Shown: positions 6,585 through 22,240 of the stretch, one piece after another
Layout of the letters: every line of letters begins with the position of its first letter
Position numbering within the stretch: position 1 is the stretch's first letter
DNA from: Desulfonatronum lacustre DSM 10312
Lineage (GTDB): Bacteria > Desulfobacterota > Desulfovibrionia > Desulfovibrionales > Desulfonatronaceae
Length of the DNA: 64,000 nt
NCBI RefSeq assembly: GCF_000519265.1
Contig: NZ_KI912608.1
Coordinates: 1,545,582 to 1,609,581, forward strand
Direction of reading: 5' to 3'
Made by a program: the position numbers and the translations under genes
Notes under the pieces: generated by a model
Told to the model about the DNA's origin: nothing
What the model saw: the letters and a program-made list of their open reading frames with translations, nothing else
Database searches by the model: none

Positions 6585-8765
<2,181 letters not shown>

Positions 8766-11753: not shown

Positions 11754-13060
11754 GTTTCAATCCACGCCCCCCGCGCGGGGGGCGACCCCGGTCCCACGCC
11801 AGCCCCCGGTTCGCGGGCCGGTTTCAATCCACGCCCCCCGCGCGGGGGGCGACAACAGCACCTTGACCGGCATTTTCTACTGTAGTTTGTTTCAATCCAC
11901 GCCCCCCGCGCGGGGGGCGACAAGCATCTATAATCCCATTTACTTCTTCATTTATTGTTTCAATCCACGCCCCCCGCGCGGGGGGCGACAAGGTCATCGT
12001 TAACGTCCGGGCCGCATTTTTTGTTTCAATCCACGCCCCCCGCGCGGGGGGCGACCGGAAAATGGTGGAACGTTCAGGAGTGGGACATGTTTCAATCCAC
12101 GCCCCCCGCGCGGGGGGCGACTTTCCGTAACCGTAACCGCAACCTTCAACAGGAGTTTCAATCCACGCCCCCCGCGCGGGGGGCGACAACAATGGGTCAC
12201 CCGCCGCAGCCGCCCGCGCAAGTTTCAATCCACGCCCCCCGCGCGGGGGGCGACTTTTCCTATCATGTAGCGTGCAACCCATGAAACAGTTTCAATCCAC
12301 GCCCCCCGCGCGGGGGGCGACTGAGAGCGTAGCGGATTTTCAAAAAGGAGGTCGTGTTTCAATCCACGCCCCCCGCGCGGGGGGCGACCCGCCGACTTCG
12401 AACAGGGCGTGCAGGCCGATGATGTTTCAATCCACGCCCCCCGCGCGGGGGGCGACAATACACCCAAATCCTGTTACAGCAAGGGATGAGGTTTCAATCC
12501 ACGCCCCCCGCGCGGGGGGCGACTGAATCCAGGACCTGGGCCGTTGAAGAAAGACATGTTTCAATCCACGCCCCCCGCGCGGGGGGCGACGGCGAGGTCG
12601 CATTATTTCCGTGGTAGAAGGTTCGTTTCAATCCACGCCCCCCGCGCGGGGGGCGACCTGTGAGTCTAAGAGCAACCAAGACCCCTGAAAGGTTTCAATC
12701 CACGCCCCCCGCGCGGGGGGCGACTGTATAGGAAATTCCATATTTTCCCCCAAGTAAAGTTTCAATCCACGCCCCCCGCGCGGGGGGCGACTGTGGCGCA
12801 TGGCGGCCATGATCTCCTGGAGCGTGTTTCAATCCACGCCCCCCGCGCGGGGGGCGACTTGGCCGAGGAACAGCGACAGATGCCAACACATTGTTTCAAT
12901 CCACGCCCCCCGCGCGGGGGGCGACCTTGAAAACCTCTCACTCCCGGAAAGGTTAATCGTGTTTCAATCCACGCCCCCCGCGCGGGGGGCGACGATCACA
13001 AGGGTGGGGGGTGGGATCTCTATTAAAGTTTCAATCCACGCCCCCCGCGCGGGGGGCGAC
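11754..13060 (-). CRISPR. Type I-C CRISPR array, 20 repeats and 19 spacers
   Basis: Twenty 33-bp repeats start at 11754, 11821, 11889, 11957, 12023, 12089, 12155, 12222, 12289, 12356, 12424, 12491, 12558, 12625, 12692, 12759, 12826, 12893, 12961 and 13028. On the plus strand each is GTTTCAATCCACG, then C6-GCGC-G6, then CGAC. I saw no base differences between copies, including the terminal one. Spacers are 33-35 bases and all different. Type I-C crRNAs carry the handle ...ATTGAAAC at the 3' end of the repeat, so transcription is on the minus strand. This puts the leader at 13061-13239 next to cas2, and the newest spacers at the high-coordinate end. The repeat hairpin is an uninterrupted GC palindrome, stronger than many of its type. 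I could not search the spacers for targets. Confidence 0.98.
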
Positions 13061-13239: not shown

Positions 13240-13530
13240 CTAAATGACCAGCGGGCCTTCCTGGTCAAAAGGCTCTTTTGCTCCGGCGTGCTCCACCCGT
13301 TTTCGCCAGTTGGAGCCGAGAAAATAGAATCGCAGGCTGTCCTTTTCCGGGTTGATTTCGTCGAGCAGTTGCTGTTTCAGCTTGGTCCACTGGGCAGGAT
13401 CGACAATGCACTCGAACACAGAGAATTGAACACGCTGCCCATGGTTCTTACAAATTTTAGCCACTCGGCGCAGACGTCCCGGACCGCCGGGATCGGATGT
13501 GGACACGTCGTAACTGACAAGGACGAACAT
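13240..13530 (-). CDS. cas2: Cas2, adaptation endonuclease/scaffold
   Basis: Cas2 bridges two Cas1 dimers in the complex that inserts new spacers at the leader end. The 96-residue protein begins MFVLVSYDVSTSD, the ferredoxin-fold strand with the family Asp, and contains RVQFSVFECIVD, typical of type I-C Cas2. It starts nine bases after cas1 ends and is the last gene before the leader. Confidence 0.96.
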   Translation of the reverse strand: MFVLVSYDVSTSDPGGPGRLRRVAKICKNHGQRVQFSVFECIVDPAQWTKLKQQLLDEINPEKDSLRFYFLGSNWRKRVEHAGAKEPFDQEGPLVI

Positions 13531-13539
13531 GGAATTGCA

Positions 13540-14571
13540 TCACCTCCAGATAAACGGCGGGTAGCCGTCCAGGTCTCCGCGAATATGCCGAGCCAAAAGC
13601 AGGGCCTGGATGAACGGCAGAAGGCCGATTTCCACTTTTTCATTCAGGAACGGATGGCTGATCACTTCTTGTTTGCGTTTCTGGTAGGCGACAAGGAACG
13701 CCTTGCGGGTGTCGTCCTTCATCAATACGCCGCCGGTTTCGGCTTGGTTGAATCCGGACTTTTTGATGACCCCGAGGTTGATCTGGGAGAGCACCAGCCG
13801 ATCCGCGACGACGGAGCGAAACTCCTCCATAATGTCCAGGGCGAGACTGGCTCGCCCTGGCCGATCCCGATGCAGAAAACCGACCGCGGGGTCCAAGCCG
13901 ACGGACTCCAAGGCGCTGCGGACATCGTGCATCAGCAGGGTGTAGGCGAATGACAGCAGGCAATTGACGTTGTCCAACGGCGGGCGGCGGCTGCGATCCT
14001 GGAACGAAAACCCCTCTTTTTGCGAGGTGATCAAGAAATTGAATACACTGAAATACGTTCCGGCCGCGTCGCCTTCGATGCCTCGCAAGACATCCAGGGA
14101 GGTGGAAACCTGGAGTTGATCCAGGGAAAAGCGCAACCGTTGCGCGGCGTCCCGCAGGGCCTCAGCGCCGGGTTTGTCGCCGTGATCGCGGAGCGCCCTT
14201 TGGAGCACCGTGCGGCTGTTGCTGATTTTCCCAGCAAGCAGCGCACGAGCTATATTCGCGGACTTTTCCTGATCATCAGCCCACCGATACTGTTCCCGCC
14301 GCAACAGCACATTGCCTGCAACCGGTCCCTGAAGCCGGGCCAAAAAACGACCATACTCGGTCAGAAAACTGACCCCCACGCCCCGCTCGGCGCACAGTCC
14401 CAACAGAAACGGACTGCACGAGACCTGTCCGAAGCAAACGATGCCGGCCAGCGTATGGATGGGGACCTGCAGTCGCGTCTCCTTTTCCACGCGCACCAGC
14501 ACGGTCTCGCCCTCACGGGACAGATACGCGCCCTGGGTCGTCACATAGAGGGTGTTCAAAAGTTTCTTCAT
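13540..14571 (-). CDS. cas1: Cas1, type I-C integrase
   Basis: Cas1 catalyses spacer integration. The true start is the ATG at 14571 (MKKLLNTLYVTTQGAYLSREG), which overlaps the cas4 stop by ATGA; the open frame extends further upstream but only through cas4. At 343 residues it has the usual I-C length. The metal site is seen in the C-terminal domain, with His in GFLHRDRPG and Asp/Glu in LALDIMEEFR, typical of I-C Cas1. It is co-transcribed with cas4 and cas2. Confidence 0.96.
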   Translation of the reverse strand: MKKLLNTLYVTTQGAYLSREGETVLVRVEKETRLQVPIHTLAGIVCFGQVSCSPFLLGLCAERGVGVSFLTEYGRFLARLQGPVAGNVLLRREQYRWADDQEKSANIARALLAGKISNSRTVLQRALRDHGDKPGAEALRDAAQRLRFSLDQLQVSTSLDVLRGIEGDAAGTYFSVFNFLITSQKEGFSFQDRSRRPPLDNVNCLLSFAYTLLMHDVRSALESVGLDPAVGFLHRDRPGRASLALDIMEEFRSVVADRLVLSQINLGVIKKSGFNQAETGGVLMKDDTRKAFLVAYQKRKQEVISHPFLNEKVEIGLLPFIQALLLARHIRGDLDGYPPFIWR

Positions 14572-15203
14572 GTTGTCGGTTCCATAAGCATGCGTGAGAG
14601 GTAGCGCCGAGCGCTTTTCGCTGATCCGGCCACCCTGGGCAGACAAAGTTCAAGCAGCGAACAACTGTCGCACTTTTTTTCGTACCGAGCCGGCGGGGTC
14701 GTTCCGGAACGGATCAACTCGTGCAGCCTGGCAGCCGTATCCATGGTTTCCCGGCGCAGTGCCGCATCAAAAGCCACGTCCTTGCGCCTGCGATTCTGGC
14801 CGTAAAACAGCGCCCCTTCGGGCACATGGCGGCCCAGCATTTCTTCCAGGCACAGGGCCTGGGCGCAGAGCTGCACCTCGTCGCAGTTGTCCTTCTTGGG
14901 GCGACCCCGCTTGTATTCCACGGGAAACGGCACCCAGTCGTTTCCCGTGAAATGGTACTCCACCACGTCGGCCCTTCCCGATAGGCCCAAGTTCAAAGAC
15001 CGTAACGGCACGCCCGTTTCGATCCGCGCCGTGTCCCTGGTCTGCCGCTGCCCTGAATCCACCCGCTCATGCATGATCCGCCCTTCAGCCGTGAAGCGGT
15101 TTTCCGTCCAGACCTGCTCGATGTGGATCAACGCGCACTGCCTGGGGCAGAATATCAGGTGCTGCAACGCGGAAAGAGGGAGGAGGTCGGCTTCCAGGTA
15201 CAT
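14568..15203 (-). CDS. cas4: Cas4, PAM-selecting prespacer exonuclease
   Basis: Type I-C Cas4 works with Cas1-Cas2 to trim prespacers and select those with a TTC PAM. The 211-residue protein starts MYLEADLLPLSALQHLIFCPRQ. The RecB-type nuclease core shows PVEYKRG (the E-x-K motif) and QLCAQALCLEE. Iron-sulfur ligands are the Cys in FCPRQC and the C-terminal CDSCSLLELC. The open frame reads on upstream into the preceding gene in the wrong frame; the start at 15203 fits the family. It lies 52 bases downstream of the HEAT/nuclease gene. Confidence 0.95.
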   Translation of the reverse strand: MYLEADLLPLSALQHLIFCPRQCALIHIEQVWTENRFTAEGRIMHERVDSGQRQTRDTARIETGVPLRSLNLGLSGRADVVEYHFTGNDWVPFPVEYKRGRPKKDNCDEVQLCAQALCLEEMLGRHVPEGALFYGQNRRRKDVAFDAALRRETMDTAARLHELIRSGTTPPARYEKKCDSCSLLELCLPRVAGSAKSARRYLSRMLMEPTT

Positions 15204-15255
15204 ACGACTATCTTCGCTTACGCTGTGCGACGTCGCGACTCGCCAGAAAAGCAAG

Positions 15256-16122
15256 TCAGCGATACTGGCGCAGTTTCTCCAGCAGACGAACGCGCAGGAC
15301 CGGCTTGTCGGCTGGATACAGGGAGATGAGGCGCTTGCCCTGCTGTTGATAGAGCTGTTGTTTCTTGAGCATGCCGATTTTGTAGTCCGCCGTGTCCATG
15401 CCCCAATATTCGATATAGACGTCAAATTCCGGCAGATAAAAATCCGGACGGATGGCGTACCCGTCCAGGATGCGGAATCGTTCGTCGTAACGATAGCGGA
15501 TGCCTTCCGCCTTGAGGGCCTCGCAGATGAGCCGCTCGCCTTCGGATTGCACCCAGGTACCGTCCCTGGCCCGAATATTTTTCTGCAGTTCCACCTTGAT
15601 CTCGTAATTGCGGCGCTCCAGGAACACTTCGTCGAAGCAGTGGTCGCAAAACGGACGCTGGAAGGCCTTGCGGCTGCGGACGTACTCATCCGGAGCCAAG
15701 CGCACGCCGCACCGCTTGCACAGATGAACGACCTGTTCCTCGGCGATGCGCACGGCCTCGGTGATGTACTCAACGGCCAGGGCCGCGTCGCGTTGATTGT
15801 AGTCCTTTTCCACCGGGTTCGCGGCCATGTCGCGGAGGTCCGGCAAGGCCGGCTTGGCTGCGACGCCGTACAGCTTGAGCGCCCGTATGGCATACTGGCG
15901 GACCTGGGGATGCGTGTCGGACAGCAAGGGATGCAGCGCGGCAACGGCCTCATCCGCATCGGCCAACCCGGCCAACTTGCCCATGGCCGACGCGGCCAGA
16001 CGGCGCACATTGGCCACGGGCGAACGAGCCAGTTGCGCAAGTTCCGGCAAGGCGGCCGGATCACCGGAGTTGCCGAGATCCACCGCCCGTTGCCGGAATT
16101 GCTGTTCGAGTTTTTTGTCCAT
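15256..16122 (-). CDS. HEAT-repeat, zinc-ribbon and PD-(D/E)XK-like nuclease protein within the cas operon
   Basis: I do not recognise this as a named Cas protein. The 288 residues fall into three parts. Residues about 12-110 are HEAT-like alpha repeats (VANVRRLAASAMGKLAGLAD and VRQYAIRALKLYG). A zinc-ribbon-like part follows with CKRCG and, about 25 residues on, CDHC. The C-terminal part resembles a restriction-endonuclease-like fold: SEGERLICEALKAEG, DGYAIRPDFYLP and VYIEYWGMD supply the Glu, Asp and Glu, with a downstream KKQQLY. Its ATG directly abuts the cas7 TAG, and cas4 follows 52 bases later, so it is embedded in the operon. It may be an accessory nuclease acting in interference, adaptation or regulation; which is unknown. 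Confidence 0.8.
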   Translation of the reverse strand: MDKKLEQQFRQRAVDLGNSGDPAALPELAQLARSPVANVRRLAASAMGKLAGLADADEAVAALHPLLSDTHPQVRQYAIRALKLYGVAAKPALPDLRDMAANPVEKDYNQRDAALAVEYITEAVRIAEEQVVHLCKRCGVRLAPDEYVRSRKAFQRPFCDHCFDEVFLERRNYEIKVELQKNIRARDGTWVQSEGERLICEALKAEGIRYRYDERFRILDGYAIRPDFYLPEFDVYIEYWGMDTADYKIGMLKKQQLYQQQGKRLISLYPADKPVLRVRLLEKLRQYR

Positions 16123-16983
16123 CTATAGCATTTCCAATAGTTCAACCCCCGCCGGAGGCTGGCCAAGGGTGACCGCATAGTCCTTGAAGGAGCGGGCCGG
16201 GCCGGTGGAGTCGTCCCGGCGCTTCACCTGGACCAGGTCGAAGAGCTTGTGGGCCGGAGCGTTGCCGAGCTTGTTCTGGTGCTTGAAGACAAAGAGCTTG
16301 CGGCTGCTCATCAGGCCGCGCGCGGCCGAGCGGTCGTGCTCGAACATGTTGACCAAAGCATCCCAGAGCAGATCCAAATCCGCCTCGGAAAAGCCGGTTT
16401 TTTCGGCCAGGGGCGCGGAGACAAAACCGTGGGCCACGTACAATCCGTAGGGCACGATATGCTTGCGGCCCATGGTCCGCTCTTTTTCCAGATCCTTTTC
16501 ATTGGTCACGGCCATGCGGGTGATGCTGATCTCCTGGGGCACGATGGGTTCCACGCTTTTGGCGAAGGCCAGTTGCACCGGTCCGCGAACCTGTCCGCAG
16601 TTGATATCCGTGGTCATAACCGCGCCGAAGGTCCGGATGTCATAGAAGTTGGCGCACATCCAACCCGTAACCTTCAGGGCGTCTTCAACTTTTTTTGGCA
16701 GTTTCTTGGCTTCGAACTTGAGGTCATGAGCGATGTAAGCCTGCTCATGCGTCCTGTTCAGCACGGCCTTTTCCTGGATGTATATTTTGAAGCCCTCGGC
16801 CCCTTCCTTGGCCAGAGCCACATGATTGCGGATCTTGCGCTTGATGCAGACGTCCGTGACCAGCCCATGTCCGGTCTCCGGGTCGATGCGGGGCATGTTC
16901 CCGGCGTCCGGATCGCCGTTGGGATTTCCGTTGACCACGTCGAAAAGCAGGACGAATTCATGGCGGTTGGCAATGGCGGTCAT
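16123..16983 (-). CDS. cas7: Cas7 (Csd2), Cascade backbone subunit
   Basis: Cas7 forms the helical filament that coats the crRNA spacer in the type I-C Cascade. The 286-residue protein begins [26 protein letters not shown], the Csd2 signature, with the conserved [13 protein letters not shown] following and [15 protein letters not shown] further on. Its start overlaps the cas8c stop by four bases, and its stop abuts the HEAT/nuclease start. Confidence 0.96.
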
Positions 16984-18731
16984 GACTGAGTCTCCTTATT
17001 TTTCTTGGTGAAAAAATCCTTGCGCTGATGGTAGTAGCCGATCATGAACAGTCCCTGTTCCTCGGAGGACATGGTGGCCGGAAAATCGTCAAAGGCGTCG
17101 ATGATGTCCTGGATCATTTTATCATAGCTGAATGCCAGACCTTTTTTCTCAGGCTCCTTGCGCAGCTTGGCCGTATGATTGGCCGCGTTTTTGAGCAGCA
17201 TGTGGAAGACCTGCCCGGGGTTGGCCGAGACCGAGCCGAGGTAACGGTCCTTGATGGTCGCATTGGTGCCGGGGACCGCCTCTTCCTGGGCTTTTTCCAG
17301 CACCGCGAACAACCTGCCCAACAAGTACGGGCGATCGGTTCGAGCGGGATCGAATGACACGGGAACCTCCCATTGTTTGTTGCGGATCAAAAACGCCTTG
17401 ATCAAGGCGGCCCGGAAATACGTCACCTGATGCTCGGCCCGGATGCGGCCGAGCACGGTGGGCAGCAGACTTTGCGGATACGGCGAGCCCGTCAGCATGG
17501 CTTTGGCTATGCCTCCGGCCAGAACGGGCGGGATATTTTCGCTTTTGCCCAGCGGCGCGGTCTGGCGGAGCAGTCGCCAGAGCGGCGGAAACTCCGGATC
17601 GGAGTCGAATTGCCGGACGATTTCCAGTTGCTGGAAATGTATGCCCACCTTTTGCAACAAGCCGCCCACGGTGTTGGTTTCCCAGAAACGAATGGCCAGC
17701 CGGGACGCATTGGGCGCAAGGGCCAGCAGATAAAAGCGCACGGACTCGTCCAGATCCGGCACGATGTCCACGGCCCGCTTGCCGGAGCGGATAGCCTGGA
17801 GCAGATCGTGAATTTTGAGCGTGGTCTGATAATCAATCTGGATTTGAGGCAATGCGTCCACTGGGGCGGGGTCAATCAGGTCCGCCAGAAAATCCTCCAC
17901 CGGATTGGAACGTTCGGCCCAGAACACGATGGTCATGTCGCCAATGGTGATTTTCTGGCGGCTCCCCCTGGTCAGAAGGGCATTGAGGGCCGTGGTGTAG
18001 GCAAAGGCGGATGTTTCGCCCACATCGGCCTTGTCCCGCCCGTAGGAGACGAACGCCGAAGCATTGAAGGAAACGATGTACCCGCCGGAAGTCTGCCCGC
18101 CTACGACGCCTTTGATAGGCGTATGCACTCGGGCCAACGGGACATCATGTTCGCCGGTTATGAGACACTGGACCTTGAGGGCCTCATCCAGCTTGGCGCA
18201 ATGAGTGCGCCATACATTTTGCAACGGTGGACGGTCGTGAATAAAACCCCTCACTCCGTCCAGCCGAAAGACAAGATTGGCTCCGGCGACTTCTTCCCAA
18301 GGGGAATAGGCATTGATGATTGTCTCAGCCTCGTCCGGCTCCCAACTTTCCATGAAGCCCCGGATCGCAACAAAGCCAGGATCGGCGAGGTCAGCGCCAA
18401 TCTCGTGAAGCAGTTCCTTGAAGGCGGCAAACCGGGGTACGTTGGTATTTGTTTCGTTCTTGTCCGCGCCCAGCACATAGGCGGCCTTGTCCCAGAGGAA
18501 GTTCGCCTTGACCCCCGAAGTCCTGGTCACTGCCGCCGGAACAGCCATTTTGCGGGGAAAGCGTTTTTTGCCGTCCGTTTCTCGCAGATCCTCCACGCCA
18601 CGGAGATTACCTTCCGTGTCCAGGATCAAGGCAAAGGAAATATTTTCAATGCTTGTGCCGTAAGGCGGCATGCCCGAGTCGGGATCGGCGATCATCCTCT
18701 CGTAGTAGCCGTGCAATGCCTGGAGAATCAT
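16980..18731 (-). CDS. cas8c: Cas8c (Csd1), Cascade large subunit
   Basis: Cas8c recognises the PAM and stabilises R-loop formation in type I-C. In this subtype an internal translation start in cas8c also makes the small subunit Cas11c. The 583-residue protein begins [13 protein letters not shown], followed by [17 protein letters not shown], typical of Csd1. An internal Met-rich 3' third could supply Cas11c (for example near [16 protein letters not shown]), but I could not identify a clear internal ribosome-binding site. It overlaps cas5c by four bases upstream and cas7 by four bases downstream. Confidence 0.95.
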
Positions 18732-19393
18732 GCTCGCACCTCCGCTGACCAGGGCGGGGGCGGCTCGATGATGCCGTCCTTCATTTCGGCCTTGAAAAAC
18801 AGCGGCGTCATGCCCTGGGAAAAGTCGATGTCCAGGAGCATGTAGCCCAGTTCCCTGGTCTGGCCGACATAGAAAGACACCGGCACCTCGCCTTCGACCA
18901 GTTCAAAAGAGGCCGGGAACTCCCGGCAGCCCAGGCATGGCTGGTGGAAGAACTGCCCGGCCCTGACCCGGCGGTTGAAAATGTCCAGGTGCTTGCCTTC
19001 GTTGTCCTCTGGTCCGGCCTTGTCCGTGAGCACGAAATGGGCTTCGATGACATAGTCCACATGCCGCAGGAGCGTGGCGGCGCGTTGCTGGCGGTTGTTG
19101 CCGTCGTCCACCAGGAAATACAGCGGTTTCTTGTCCCGCATGGCCGTGACCGGATTGGGTTTGGGAATCTTGGAACTGACCTCGTTGCGACGGACGTTAT
19201 CGAAAATAATGGGCTTGAGCACATGAATCTTGTCCACCACCCAGCGGATGGCCGGTTTCCAGTGGATGGCCTCCAGAATCCCCCGGGCCGCGGACGGGGT
19301 CATCACGTCGTAGGAAACTCTCTCGACCTTCATTTCGGGTCTGGTCCAGCACGCATAGTCGCCCCAGACCCGCAGCTTGATGCCGAATGCCAT
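18728..19393 (-). CDS. cas5: Cas5c (Csd5), crRNA-processing subunit
   Basis: In type I-C, Cas5 replaces Cas6: it cuts the repeat RNA below the hairpin and holds the 5' handle. I chose the ATG at 19393 (MAFGIKLRVWGDYACWTRPEMKVERVSYDV), preceded by AGGAGG eight bases upstream; the open frame extends to 19477 but that segment is the noncoding structured region. The 221-residue length is normal. The sequence MTPSAARGILEAIHWKPAI is the family RAMP signature. The gene is 190 bases downstream of cas3, and this gap holds the crRNA-like element described separately. Confidence 0.95.
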   Translation of the reverse strand: MAFGIKLRVWGDYACWTRPEMKVERVSYDVMTPSAARGILEAIHWKPAIRWVVDKIHVLKPIIFDNVRRNEVSSKIPKPNPVTAMRDKKPLYFLVDDGNNRQQRAATLLRHVDYVIEAHFVLTDKAGPEDNEGKHLDIFNRRVRAGQFFHQPCLGCREFPASFELVEGEVPVSFYVGQTRELGYMLLDIDFSQGMTPLFFKAEMKDGIIEPPPPWSAEVRA

Positions 19394-19410
19394 GGCGTCC
19401 TCCTGAACGT

Positions 19411-19500
19411 TGGCCGCGAGGCATGCGCCTCGCGGCCAGAAAGCTAACAGACACAAACGTTTAAATCCAAGTTTCAATCCACGGACCGATGTTGGCCGAC
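19411..19500 (-). ncRNA. Candidate crRNA-like regulatory RNA (CreR/CreA-like) between cas3 and cas5c
   Basis: On the minus strand 19500-19471 is a degenerate 30-base CRISPR repeat. Its first four bases (GTCG) and last 13 (CGTGGATTGAAAC) equal the array repeat. The middle has diverged but can still pair as CGGCC/GG(T)CCG. A 32-base spacer-like segment follows (19470-19439, beginning TTGGATTTAAACG). Then comes a 12-bp hairpin, TGGCCGCGAGGC-GCAT-GCCTCGCGGCCA (19438-19411), in the place of a second repeat. The first 11 spacer bases exactly match 19572-19582 on the plus strand, preceded by TTC. This is the structure of known Cas-regulating crRNA-like RNAs; expression and function are inferred. Confidence 0.65.
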
Positions 19501-19507
19501 GTCTGTT

Positions 19508-19517
19508 TCACCTCCTT
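19508..19517 (-). promoter_or_regulatory. Strong Shine-Dalgarno without a properly spaced start codon
   Basis: The minus strand reads AAGGAGGTGA, a ten-base match to the anti-Shine-Dalgarno sequence, just upstream of the degenerate repeat. No ATG, GTG or TTG lies 5-10 bases downstream. The only frame it could open starts at a GTG overlapping the motif itself (19511) and ends at 19461 after 16 codons. It may be a relic of a lost start, or part of a small toxin-like RNA. Confidence 0.5.
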
Positions 19518-19568
19518 GTGTTTTTGAATCCCCATATCGCAAGAGTAAATTTCTTGGCAAGAAAAATT

Positions 19569-19605
19569 TTCTTGGATTTAAAAGTTAGATTATCAAAGAC
19601 GACGG
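19569..19605 (+). promoter_or_regulatory. Candidate Cascade target of the crRNA-like RNA (TTC PAM plus partial protospacer)
   Basis: TTC at 19569-19571 is followed by TTGGATTTAAAAGTTAG. Against the spacer-like segment this matches positions 1-11, 13-15 and 17. Position 12, the first mismatch, is one of the every-sixth bases that type I complexes flip out. The matching then breaks down, which would favour binding over cleavage. The site covers the cas3 stop codon and lies upstream of cas5c and of the crRNA-like element itself. An AT-rich palindrome (AAGAAAAATTTTCTT, 19559-19573) overlaps its edge. Confidence 0.55.
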
Positions 19606-21828
19606 CTCCCAAACATCTCCTTCATCCACGCGCAAACCGACGCTCCTGTCGTAGGCCGCCAGGTTGCACAGAACAGGATACTGGTCATGGATCATCTCCA
19701 CGGCTCCGGCCGCGTGCAGCCGAGTCAGATCTTTGGAACGAACTGTCATGGAATACTGTTGCAGCTTGCGCAGTGTGGAGCGAGGAAATTCGGTGTGCCG
19801 CAACTCCCGGATCAACAGTTGGGCTTCTTCGGATTCCTTGAGGTCGAGACCATTCACCTCCGGCATCAAGGGAATGATCACGCCCGTGCCTGCATCCTCA
19901 ATAATGCGGAAATCCTGGGCCACCTCCTTGAACGGAAGAATCAGTTCCTTGTTGAGGGGAGCATTCAGGCGTTTCAGGATCTGTTTACCGTCCAAATCCT
20001 GAACATCGTAGAGTAACTCGAAATACCGACGCATGACTTCAAGCCCCAGCGGATCAGCATCCGGCATGGTGCGCAAGGTCTCGGCTGCACGGGATGCGCA
20101 GCGTTGCAGCCAGGGCATTTTCGGTGGCTGTTCAGGTTCAAAGACAACAACCTGACCGCCGCCCCCCCGTCCAACGGGCAGCCTCCCTTCCCGGTTGCAC
20201 CGCCCGGCGGCCTGGGCAATGGAGTCCAGCCCGGCCATGGCCCGATAGACCACGGGAAAATCGACATCCACGCCTGCCTCGATCAGGGACGTGGAAATCA
20301 CCCTGCACGGCAACCTGTCCTGGAGCCGCCCACGGATCACGGCCAGCACATGCCGCCGGTGGACCGGGGTCATGTTGGTGGAGAGGTGAAACGCGCCATC
20401 CCTGTTGGCCAGTTGTTCAAAGACCGTCTTGGCCTGGGGCTTGGTGCTCGCGATGCACAGCACCTGTTCATGTTCGTCCAATCGCGCGGCCAGTTCCGCG
20501 TTGGACAGCTTGCCGACGAACCGGACCTGGGTGCGCTTGAGTTGTTCATAGAGTTGGTTCGGCTGGACAATGATTTCCCGTACGTCGCGCAAGGCAGTTC
20601 GCAGTTTGGAATCGTCCAAGGCGGGCTGAGTGGCGGTACACAGAACCACGGAGCAGCCGTAACGGTCCACCAGTTCGCGCAAGGCCGCCAGACAGGGTTC
20701 CAAATACTCGGTGGGAATCGCCTGGGCCTCGTCCAGGATGATCACGCTCCGGGCGATGTTGTGCAGCTTGCGGCAGCGCGAAGGCTTGTTGCTGAACAAG
20801 GACTCGAAGAACTGGACGTTGGTGGTGACCACCACCGGAGCGTCCCAATTCTCGGCGGCCAGACCGCGCCGGGTGTCGTATTCCCGGTCCTCCGGAGCAT
20901 CCTTGTCCCGATAGTTGCAATGATGCTCCAGCACGTTGGCCCGTCCGAGAATGTCGCTGAATACCTTGGCGTTCTGCTCAATGATGGACGTGAAGGGGAT
21001 GGCGAAGATGATCCGGCGCAGTCCGTGGGTCACGGCGTGGTCCAAGGCAAAGGCCAGGGAAGACAAGGTCTTGCCGCCGCCCGTGGGCACGGTCAGGGAG
21101 AAGAAACCCGGCGGCGACGCGGCCATGCGACGGCAGTCTTCCAGGACCCCGCGGCGCAGGATGTTCACAGGAGTGGGATCGGCCTTTTGCAGCAGGCGAT
21201 CCAGGTACCTGTTCAGGTTGGTTTGCAATGTCGGGATCTGGTCGGCTTGAGCCTGAATCTTCGTGTACTTCAGCGAGTTGCGCAGTCCGGCCTTTTCCGG
21301 CGAGCAAAAGGCCTCTGTGTCCAGAAAATCCGCGTCCGTGAGGCAGGAAAAGAGCATGCGGGTGAAGAAGGACAAGGTGAAGCCAACCTGGTTGCGGGAC
21401 AAAGTGAACGGCGGTTTCAGGTCGGCTGGACAGGCGACCACGGGCAACACTTCGACGTAATCCGGAAGGCGTTCCTGCTTCAGGCGAAAGTGAAGCTGTC
21501 CTTCCTGCACCCCTCCGTCCGGCAAGCCGCCGTGATGGCCGGCCACGATGTAGGACAGCAAAAGCCCGAGCCGCCCGCATTGCTCCGCGCCCAGGCGGGC
21601 TCCAAAAATGGAGTGGTTGACCCGGATTGGTCGCCCTTCCAATCTCGCGATGAACTCCGCAGTCGCCTTGCCCGCGTCGTGCAGCAAACCGACGGTCCGC
21701 CCCCAGTCGGAAGCGCCGAAAGCCGCGGCGAATTCCGCGGCAAGTCGGGCCACGTTCTCCAGATGGTCTTCAAGAAGCTGCCAGTCCGACTTGTCCGGAT
21801 TGGGCGTCGAATGGGCGTAAAATGGCAT
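19585..21828 (-). CDS. cas3: Cas3, HD nuclease-helicase
   Basis: Cas3 is recruited to the Cascade R-loop and degrades target DNA. The ATG at 21828 (MPFYAHSTPN) has GAGGAA seven bases upstream; a GTG two codons earlier is also possible. The 747-residue protein carries the N-terminal HD nuclease (HLENVARLAAEF, GLLHDAGK, VAGHHGG). A superfamily 2 helicase follows: PTGGGKT (Walker A), LDEAQAIP (motif II), SLIEAGVDVDFP (motif V) and QAAGRCNREG (motif VI). It is the first gene of the cas operon, although the structured 190-base gap after it suggests that cas5c onward may have its own control. Confidence 0.96.
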   Translation of the reverse strand: MPFYAHSTPNPDKSDWQLLEDHLENVARLAAEFAAAFGASDWGRTVGLLHDAGKATAEFIARLEGRPIRVNHSIFGARLGAEQCGRLGLLLSYIVAGHHGGLPDGGVQEGQLHFRLKQERLPDYVEVLPVVACPADLKPPFTLSRNQVGFTLSFFTRMLFSCLTDADFLDTEAFCSPEKAGLRNSLKYTKIQAQADQIPTLQTNLNRYLDRLLQKADPTPVNILRRGVLEDCRRMAASPPGFFSLTVPTGGGKTLSSLAFALDHAVTHGLRRIIFAIPFTSIIEQNAKVFSDILGRANVLEHHCNYRDKDAPEDREYDTRRGLAAENWDAPVVVTTNVQFFESLFSNKPSRCRKLHNIARSVIILDEAQAIPTEYLEPCLAALRELVDRYGCSVVLCTATQPALDDSKLRTALRDVREIIVQPNQLYEQLKRTQVRFVGKLSNAELAARLDEHEQVLCIASTKPQAKTVFEQLANRDGAFHLSTNMTPVHRRHVLAVIRGRLQDRLPCRVISTSLIEAGVDVDFPVVYRAMAGLDSIAQAAGRCNREGRLPVGRGGGGQVVVFEPEQPPKMPWLQRCASRAAETLRTMPDADPLGLEVMRRYFELLYDVQDLDGKQILKRLNAPLNKELILPFKEVAQDFRIIEDAGTGVIIPLMPEVNGLDLKESEEAQLLIRELRHTEFPRSTLRKLQQYSMTVRSKDLTRLHAAGAVEMIHDQYPVLCNLAAYDRSVGLRVDEGDVWEPSSLII

Positions 21829-22240
21829 GGTCACTTCCTCACCTCCATCCTTGACGGTTCAGATTTCTTGGCACCCCTCGAAAGAATAACGGGATACTGC
21901 TCGACCGAGGTTGACCTCTACCATGACCACAGGCTCAAAACCTGACCTTGTCAAAAACAACTTTTCGCAGAGGCAAGGGCCATTTTTCCGAATTGATTCA
22001 GAAAAGTCCGTTGGGAGAAGAGAGGGTCGTTGCCGGAGTTCATCAGCCGTTTGTCCGGCTTGTGGCGCAGGTGTGATGGGAGGGAGAGCGTGGACCGGGG
22101 TTCAGGAGGGGGTGAACCGCTGTTCATGGCCGAGGATTGCGGCGCTCCGGTGGAGGATTATCAGAAATACGCGGCATGGGCGTCCTTCTGGACGCCCATG
22201 CCTTTCTCTGATGGGTCGAGGGGAAAAATGAAGCAACGAA
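21829..22240 (-). other. Intergenic region upstream of cas3
   Basis: About 410 bases with no supported gene. It must hold the cas3 promoter on the minus strand, but no hexamer pair stands out. The cas3 ribosome-binding sequences (GGAGG near 21840 and GAGGAA near 21835) and the hairpin at 22173-22202 are the only clear elements. Short open frames here show no recognisable protein family. Confidence 0.6.
22173..22202 (-). terminator. 13-bp hairpin, possible terminator of the outer-membrane protein operon
   Basis: GGCATGGGCGTCC (22173-22185) and GGACGCCCATGCC (22190-22202) form a perfect 13-bp stem with a four-base loop, 39 bases beyond the stop of the minus-strand gene. There is no T run on the minus-strand side, so a factor-dependent or 3'-end-protecting role is as likely as intrinsic termination. 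Confidence 0.5.

Follow-up and report, generated by a model that had tools for sequence, protein, structure and literature searches.

Homing endonucleases of the PD-(D/E)XK and EDxHD families are on record (PMC3943268), and free-standing homing endonucleases adjoin essential genes and mark boundaries of exchange (PMC10448857). A described system that couples a single gene with short palindromes is REP/RAYT (REPtron), which consists of a Y1 HUH transposase and dispersed REPs. The gene analyzed here, designated HCP (HEAT-CxxC-PD-(D/E)XK gene), lies in a type I-C cas operon of Desulfonatronum lacustre DSM 10312, within a window of 64,000 nt that represents the whole stretch of DNA analyzed. The family itself is not new, since it is already present in PADLOC as HEAT_CxxC_PDDEXK, which the window protein matches end to end (E 2e-179; Table 1). 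The PADLOC-DB entry for the family consists of a name only, and no description of its function, mobility or hairpins was found in the literature searched, the coverage of which did not extend to the probable primary source on CRISPR-linked genes. It is the behaviour of the gene and not its family that appears to be new.

The HCP gene and its type I-C operon

Checking of the ORF and its translation showed that HCP is a real gene encoding 288 residues. As stated in the preliminary description, it is located between cas7 and cas4, and its ATG directly abuts the TAG stop codon of cas7; the strand, absent from that description, is minus. On this strand the gene order is cas3, cas5c, cas8c, cas7c, HCP, cas4, cas1 and cas2, followed by a CRISPR array. 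The type I-C operon around HCP is complete, and every cas gene was verified by Pfam or NCBIfam.

Table 1. Coordinates of HCP, its domains and its neighbours in the window.
Feature	Position	Strand	Basis
HCP, HEAT-CxxC-PD-(D/E)XK gene	15256..16122	-	PADLOC PDLC01150, 593 bits, 1-288/288
HEAT-repeat domain, residues 1-125	15748..16122	-	Pfam HEAT_2/HEAT; AF2 helices; Foldseek
Four-cysteine ribbon, C135-x2-C138 ... C159-x2-C162	15637..15720	-	Conservation
PD-(D/E)XK (I-Bth0305I/Vsr-like) nuclease domain, residues ~183-288; E196, D227, E238, K254	15259..15576	-	Conservation and structure matches
HCP 3' flank from the stop codon, TGACTTGCTTTTCTGGCGAGTCGCGACGTCGC..., predicted hairpin GACTTGCT/GGCGAGTC, GACTYGYT motif	15204..15258	-	Sequence, fold, motif enrichment at HCP-family flanks
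cas7c, upstream neighbour	16123..16983	-	TIGR02589, 1.7e-124
cas4, downstream neighbour, 52 nt past the HCP stop	14568..15203	-	TIGR00372, 2e-40
cas1 and cas2	13240..14646	-	TIGR03640, TIGR01573
cas8c, cas5c and cas3	16980..21834	-	TIGR01863, TIGR01876, TIGR01587
CRISPR array, ~20 repeats of 33 nt, spacing ~67 nt	11754..13060		Repeat detection

The three-part architecture proposed earlier for the protein was confirmed. The N-terminal part matches Pfam HEAT_2 at 6.5e-12, and it was modelled by AF2 as helices with pLDDT of 96-98 over most of the domain, for which Foldseek returned alphaRep HEAT proteins. The four cysteines of the ribbon are conserved at 97% or more in 126 HCP sequences and are invariant in 54. 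The same threshold holds for E196, D227 and E238 in the 126 sequences, and thus the loss of the acidic residues across the family, named in the preliminary description as a refuting outcome, was not observed.

With the whole HCP model, the leading Foldseek matches were all HEAT/ARM-type repeat proteins, and the ribbon and nuclease part was therefore modelled alone; the best 60 entries listed by a PDB sequence search with HCP were likewise all HEAT/ARM-type chains. I-Bth0305I, a phage homing endonuclease, provides the best match of the ribbon-plus-nuclease AlphaFold model with its catalytic domain (3r3p; Z 10.2, 90 residues at an rmsd of 2.7), which is also the top match in Foldseek at a marginal E of 3e-3, followed by Vsr (Z 9.3), Bax1 and TnsA (Z 7.9). 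Accordingly, the restriction-endonuclease-like domain that had been recognized at the C-terminus can be assigned to the PD-(D/E)XK fold by its match to I-Bth0305I and Vsr. The PHROG homing and intron-encoded nuclease families match HCP weakly, one homing-endonuclease family at E 3e-5. A check for the EDxHD motif, based on conservation and not on a residue-level I-Bth0305I alignment, found E196, D213, D227 and E238 conserved and no obvious HD pair past the second acidic residue. Judging from the models and the conservation, HCP has a known homing-endonuclease catalytic fold with a conserved active site.

Distribution and insertion sites of HCP

A scan of genome contigs yielded 80 loci, for the most part from PVC-group bacteria and Desulfobacterota and most at 50-78% identity. 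A phylum-wide search around Pontiella (Verrucomicrobiota-type phylum) revealed HCP in 65 of 388 genomes, several of which carry 2-6 matches, broken copies among them. The gene is rare in Desulfobacterota (5 of 395 genomes). The plasmids searched gave zero matches, and none of the candidate stretches of viral contigs encodes an HCP relative. In one genome, two distantly related copies (L035, 10001-10900 and 15029-15940) lie ~4-5 kb apart and flank an ORF of 1192 residues.

We typed 138 non-redundant loci by the cas homologues in the surroundings of each copy and checked the subtypes by NCBIfam. The loci comprise 32 of I-C/I-B, 12 of I-G, 9 of I-E, five otherwise cas-linked, three with an array only and 77 with none of these, the I-G count being slightly inflated by L082, which sits after polA and was wrongly typed by the automatic census. 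Of the 77 copies in an unbiased sample of the Verrucomicrobiota-type phylum, 24 (31%) are cas-linked and a further 50 (about two thirds) lack any cas signal, whereas all eight copies from the genome search of Desulfobacterota (the window, three relatives and four more) are cas-linked. The preliminary description took HCP as a gene embedded in a cas operon and regarded homologues mostly away from CRISPR loci as an argument against a CRISPR role. The former stands, and the linkage is non-random, with HCP at the cas7-cas4 junction in 28 of the 32 I-C/I-B loci, but the latter is largely the situation outside Desulfobacterota.

The positions occupied in other operons are various: cas8-cse2 or cas6-cas7 in I-E, on either side of cas3 or following csb2 in I-G, and before or after cas4 in I-B-like loci. 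Inside cas operons every HCP is on the sense strand and intergenic, consistent with insertions that leave the operon unbroken. The non-cas copies have random neighbours: the 59 upstream genes contain 117 Pfam families, of which none occurs more than twice, and the upstream neighbour is on the plus strand in 41 cases and on the minus strand in 30. These neighbours are mostly housekeeping genes, with polA, nadA and uvrA/uvrB-domain genes as examples. Few families recur beside solo HCP, and N6_Mtase (type I restriction-modification) is one of them.

Genomes with only solo HCP are not enriched for cas1 (22 of 41, versus 144 of 323; p=0.32), and the idea that solo HCP needs a CRISPR-bearing genome was dropped on this ground. 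Meanwhile, dN/dS is ~0.05-0.15 in solo and cas-linked pairs alike. The purifying selection in solo copies and the lack of cas1 enrichment together indicate that HCP works, or is renewed, without CRISPR. Degenerate copies were found in 8 of 81 solo cases and in none of 53 in cas operons (p=0.02), hinting at an extra constraint in the latter.

Separate history, mobility and flanking hairpins

When sister HCP copies in different contexts are compared, the homology is confined to the ORF and ~0-120 nt of flank, with limits at -1 and stop+6 for L015/L021, -15 and stop+0 for L165/L170, and -83 and stop-28 for L041/L046. Both members of the last pair, L041 in an I-E operon and L046 in an I-C operon, are found in the same genome, and they are sisters in the HCP tree (97*). 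Throughout this tree, solo and cas-linked copies are interleaved, and at least 16 label changes are forced by starred branches, a number inflated slightly by the mistyped L082. Among I-C loci, the pairwise identity correlations between HCP and Cas proteins are 0.11-0.32, compared with 0.73 for Cas5-Cas3 and 0.60 for Cas7-Cas8, both within the effector module, and 0.52 for Cas1-Cas4. In the cas8 tree, L202, L203 and L204 form a clade with the window at 100*, which is rejected by the HCP data (AU p=0.0002); the HCP tree groups the window with L014, L017, L020 and L021, and this grouping is rejected by the cas7 and cas8 data. The conflict means that two distinct HCP lineages occupy one junction in one effector lineage. 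By identity correlations and AU tests, HCP thus does not co-evolve with the I-C effector or adaptation genes, and the role linked to Cascade or adaptation that had been suggested for it, in the sense of a dedicated I-C subunit, is not supported, in view of its different history, the prevalence of solo copies in the Verrucomicrobiota-type phylum and the lack of cas1 enrichment in genomes with only such copies.

Presence and absence at one site can also be seen, since L207 lacks HCP and L208 and L209 of the same genus carry it. In 15 other I-C operons of the order the cas7-cas4 gap is just -10 to 16 nt. The mobility of the HCP gene is strongly supported by these data.

Several further loci deserve mention. 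Two HCP-free I-C operons, L207 and L210, have a strong hairpin in the cas7-cas4 gap (71 and 75 nt, respectively); that of L207 resembles the hairpin found upstream of HCP and is possibly the scar of a lost copy. In L214 and L216 the gap of ~600 nt is filled by a different coding-size insert, which suggests that the cas7-cas4 junction is a general insertion hotspot, and in L232 the gap of 255 nt contains two copies of a CRISPR-like repeat (CCCGCGCGGGGGCGTGGATTGAAA). At L053 (the L243 locus, 6750-8503), HCP lies between a partial 5' copy of cas4 on its upstream side and a complete one downstream, the two being 83% identical over 125 bp; this repeat is possibly a duplication produced at insertion.

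It could be argued that HCP is a true accessory nuclease of type I CRISPR, acting in prespacer trimming, target cleavage or as a fail-safe, which spreads horizontally as a swappable module and has left solo copies as escapees. The marked enrichment in cas operons of four type I subtypes, the constant sense orientation and recurrent I-C/I-B junction, the invariant catalytic residues and the intactness of the copies in cas operons would all be expected of such a nuclease, and, given its uniform cas linkage in Desulfobacterota, HCP may have a CRISPR role there. However, about two thirds of the copies in the Verrucomicrobiota-type phylum are solo and yet under strong purifying selection (dN/dS 0.05-0.08), solo copies show no association with CRISPR-bearing genomes, solo and cas-linked copies are mixed in the tree, and HCP is missing from most I-C operons of the window's order. 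We therefore regard the accessory nuclease as an unlikely alternative; it is likelier that HCP is a passenger than that it is a dedicated part of CRISPR. Nevertheless, HCP is genuinely concentrated in type I cas operons, which may reflect targeting, a benefit to immunity or the hitch-hiking of HCP on mobile operons.

Many HCP copies are preceded by a hairpin with the arms GACTYGYT...ARCRAGTC. The motif, which was derived from these same data, occurs within 150 nt 5' of HCP in 35 of 131 cases, compared with 25 of 1180 for other ORFs at the same loci. When 13 or more of the 16 bases had to pair, motif hairpins were found upstream of 15 of 131 HCP copies and of none of the 1180 other ORFs, in a scan that demanded motif-like arms and so biased positions 1-8 to pairing, the same scan being used for the control. 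Compensatory C-G/T-A exchanges are present in the arms at positions 5 and 7. The motif hairpin is present in just 28-39 of the 131 upstream flanks. Of 24 instances of the long-form motif in 21 genomes, 20 are within ~130 nt of HCP and one more is beside an HCP remnant. Pattern scans covering 25 genomes and 21 genomes ruled out a REP-like genome-wide dispersal of the hairpins, since the palindromes lie beside HCP apart from three or four stray motif matches. The hairpin may serve as a recombination end, a nuclease target or a means of RNA control. At L169, several CCGCGTCAACGCGCGCCGCAAAGTCA-like palindromes flank HCP.

These flanks raise the question of whether HCP could be the transposase of a minimal IS-like element that has the hairpins or inverted repeats as its ends and moves by cut- or copy-and-paste instead of homing. 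Unrelated sites are entered with sharp boundaries, motif-bearing hairpins move along with the gene, the fold is common to TnsA, a Tn7 transposase subunit, and inverted repeats lie to the left and right of HCP at L166, L065, L171, L051 and L066. On the other hand, inverted or direct repeats bounding HCP are overall not enriched relative to control ORFs (inverted, p=0.16), so that no IS claim is made, and the window copy has the motif on its 3' side, starting at the stop codon, and lacks the upstream hairpin. An IS-like element is thus improbable. That HCP is a general defence or DNA-repair nuclease living wherever it lands, with cas operons as mere defence islands, is very improbable, for although PADLOC lists both the family and PDC-S69, a relative of the C-terminal part (1.4e-17), and N6_Mtase genes adjoin HCP in a few loci, the non-cas neighbours are mostly housekeeping and not defence genes.

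The homing-like reading and known systems

In our opinion, HCP is probably a solitary mobile gene, functionally like a homing endonuclease, which has entered type I cas operons on many occasions and frequently other sites too. It is an independent ORF between host genes, present or absent at a given site, with a phylogeny independent of the flanking genes; the multiple copies per genome and the degenerate copies in solo contexts also favour the homing-like reading. From the fold and behaviour, homing-type nuclease action would be the most economical mechanism. The HEAT domain and the zinc ribbon would bind DNA, the I-Bth0305I/Vsr-like nuclease would cut the allele without HCP, and in the course of repair the HCP ORF would be copied into the cut site together with the short flanks that bear the hairpin. 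The window copy would have settled in this way between cas7 and cas4, the boundary of the effector and adaptation modules. Random insertion or simple selfishness does not explain why ~31% of the copies lie in cas operons, which make up well under 1% of the genome, and homing by itself does not explain the entry into unrelated sites.

More tentatively, HCP might represent a novel kind of mobile element in bacteria, consisting of one HEAT-guided gene with an I-Bth0305I/Vsr-like nuclease and hairpin-bearing flanks of its own. Such an element would actively invade the cas operons of several type I subtypes at positions following stop codons, would move between CRISPR operons within genomes, and may aid the exchange of effector and adaptation modules at their junction. 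The homing-like reading would account for the odd distribution of HEAT_CxxC_PDDEXK and makes HCP a candidate for homing-type selfish genes residing in bacterial immunity operons. A gene catalogued as CRISPR-linked by its neighbourhood shows the marks of a mobile gene, which calls for caution in deducing Cas function from operon position.

Among known systems, REP/RAYT resembles HCP in the combination of one gene and short palindromes, but HCP was rejected as a member, because its nuclease is of the PD-(D/E)XK fold and its palindromes lie beside HCP and are not dispersed genome-wide. Cas4, the operon neighbour, belongs to the same PD-(D/E)XK superfamily; however, it falls in other Pfam families and has other accessory domains. 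Free-standing phage homing endonucleases (I-Bth0305I/Vsr-like) are similar to HCP in catalytic fold, solitary location between operon genes, presence or absence at a site and independent history. In contrast to them, HCP is bacterial and chromosomal, has a HEAT domain and zinc ribbon replacing the usual phage modules, carries hairpin-bearing flanks and prefers type I cas operons, its cleavage being putative. The endonuclease gp114 of Gordonia phage Pupper shares the nuclease domain with HCP (hhalign E 1.4e-10) but has an N-terminal helix-turn-helix where HCP has HEAT and ribbon, and it is encoded in a structural operon, where its start and the stop codon of the preceding tail-sheath gene overlap.
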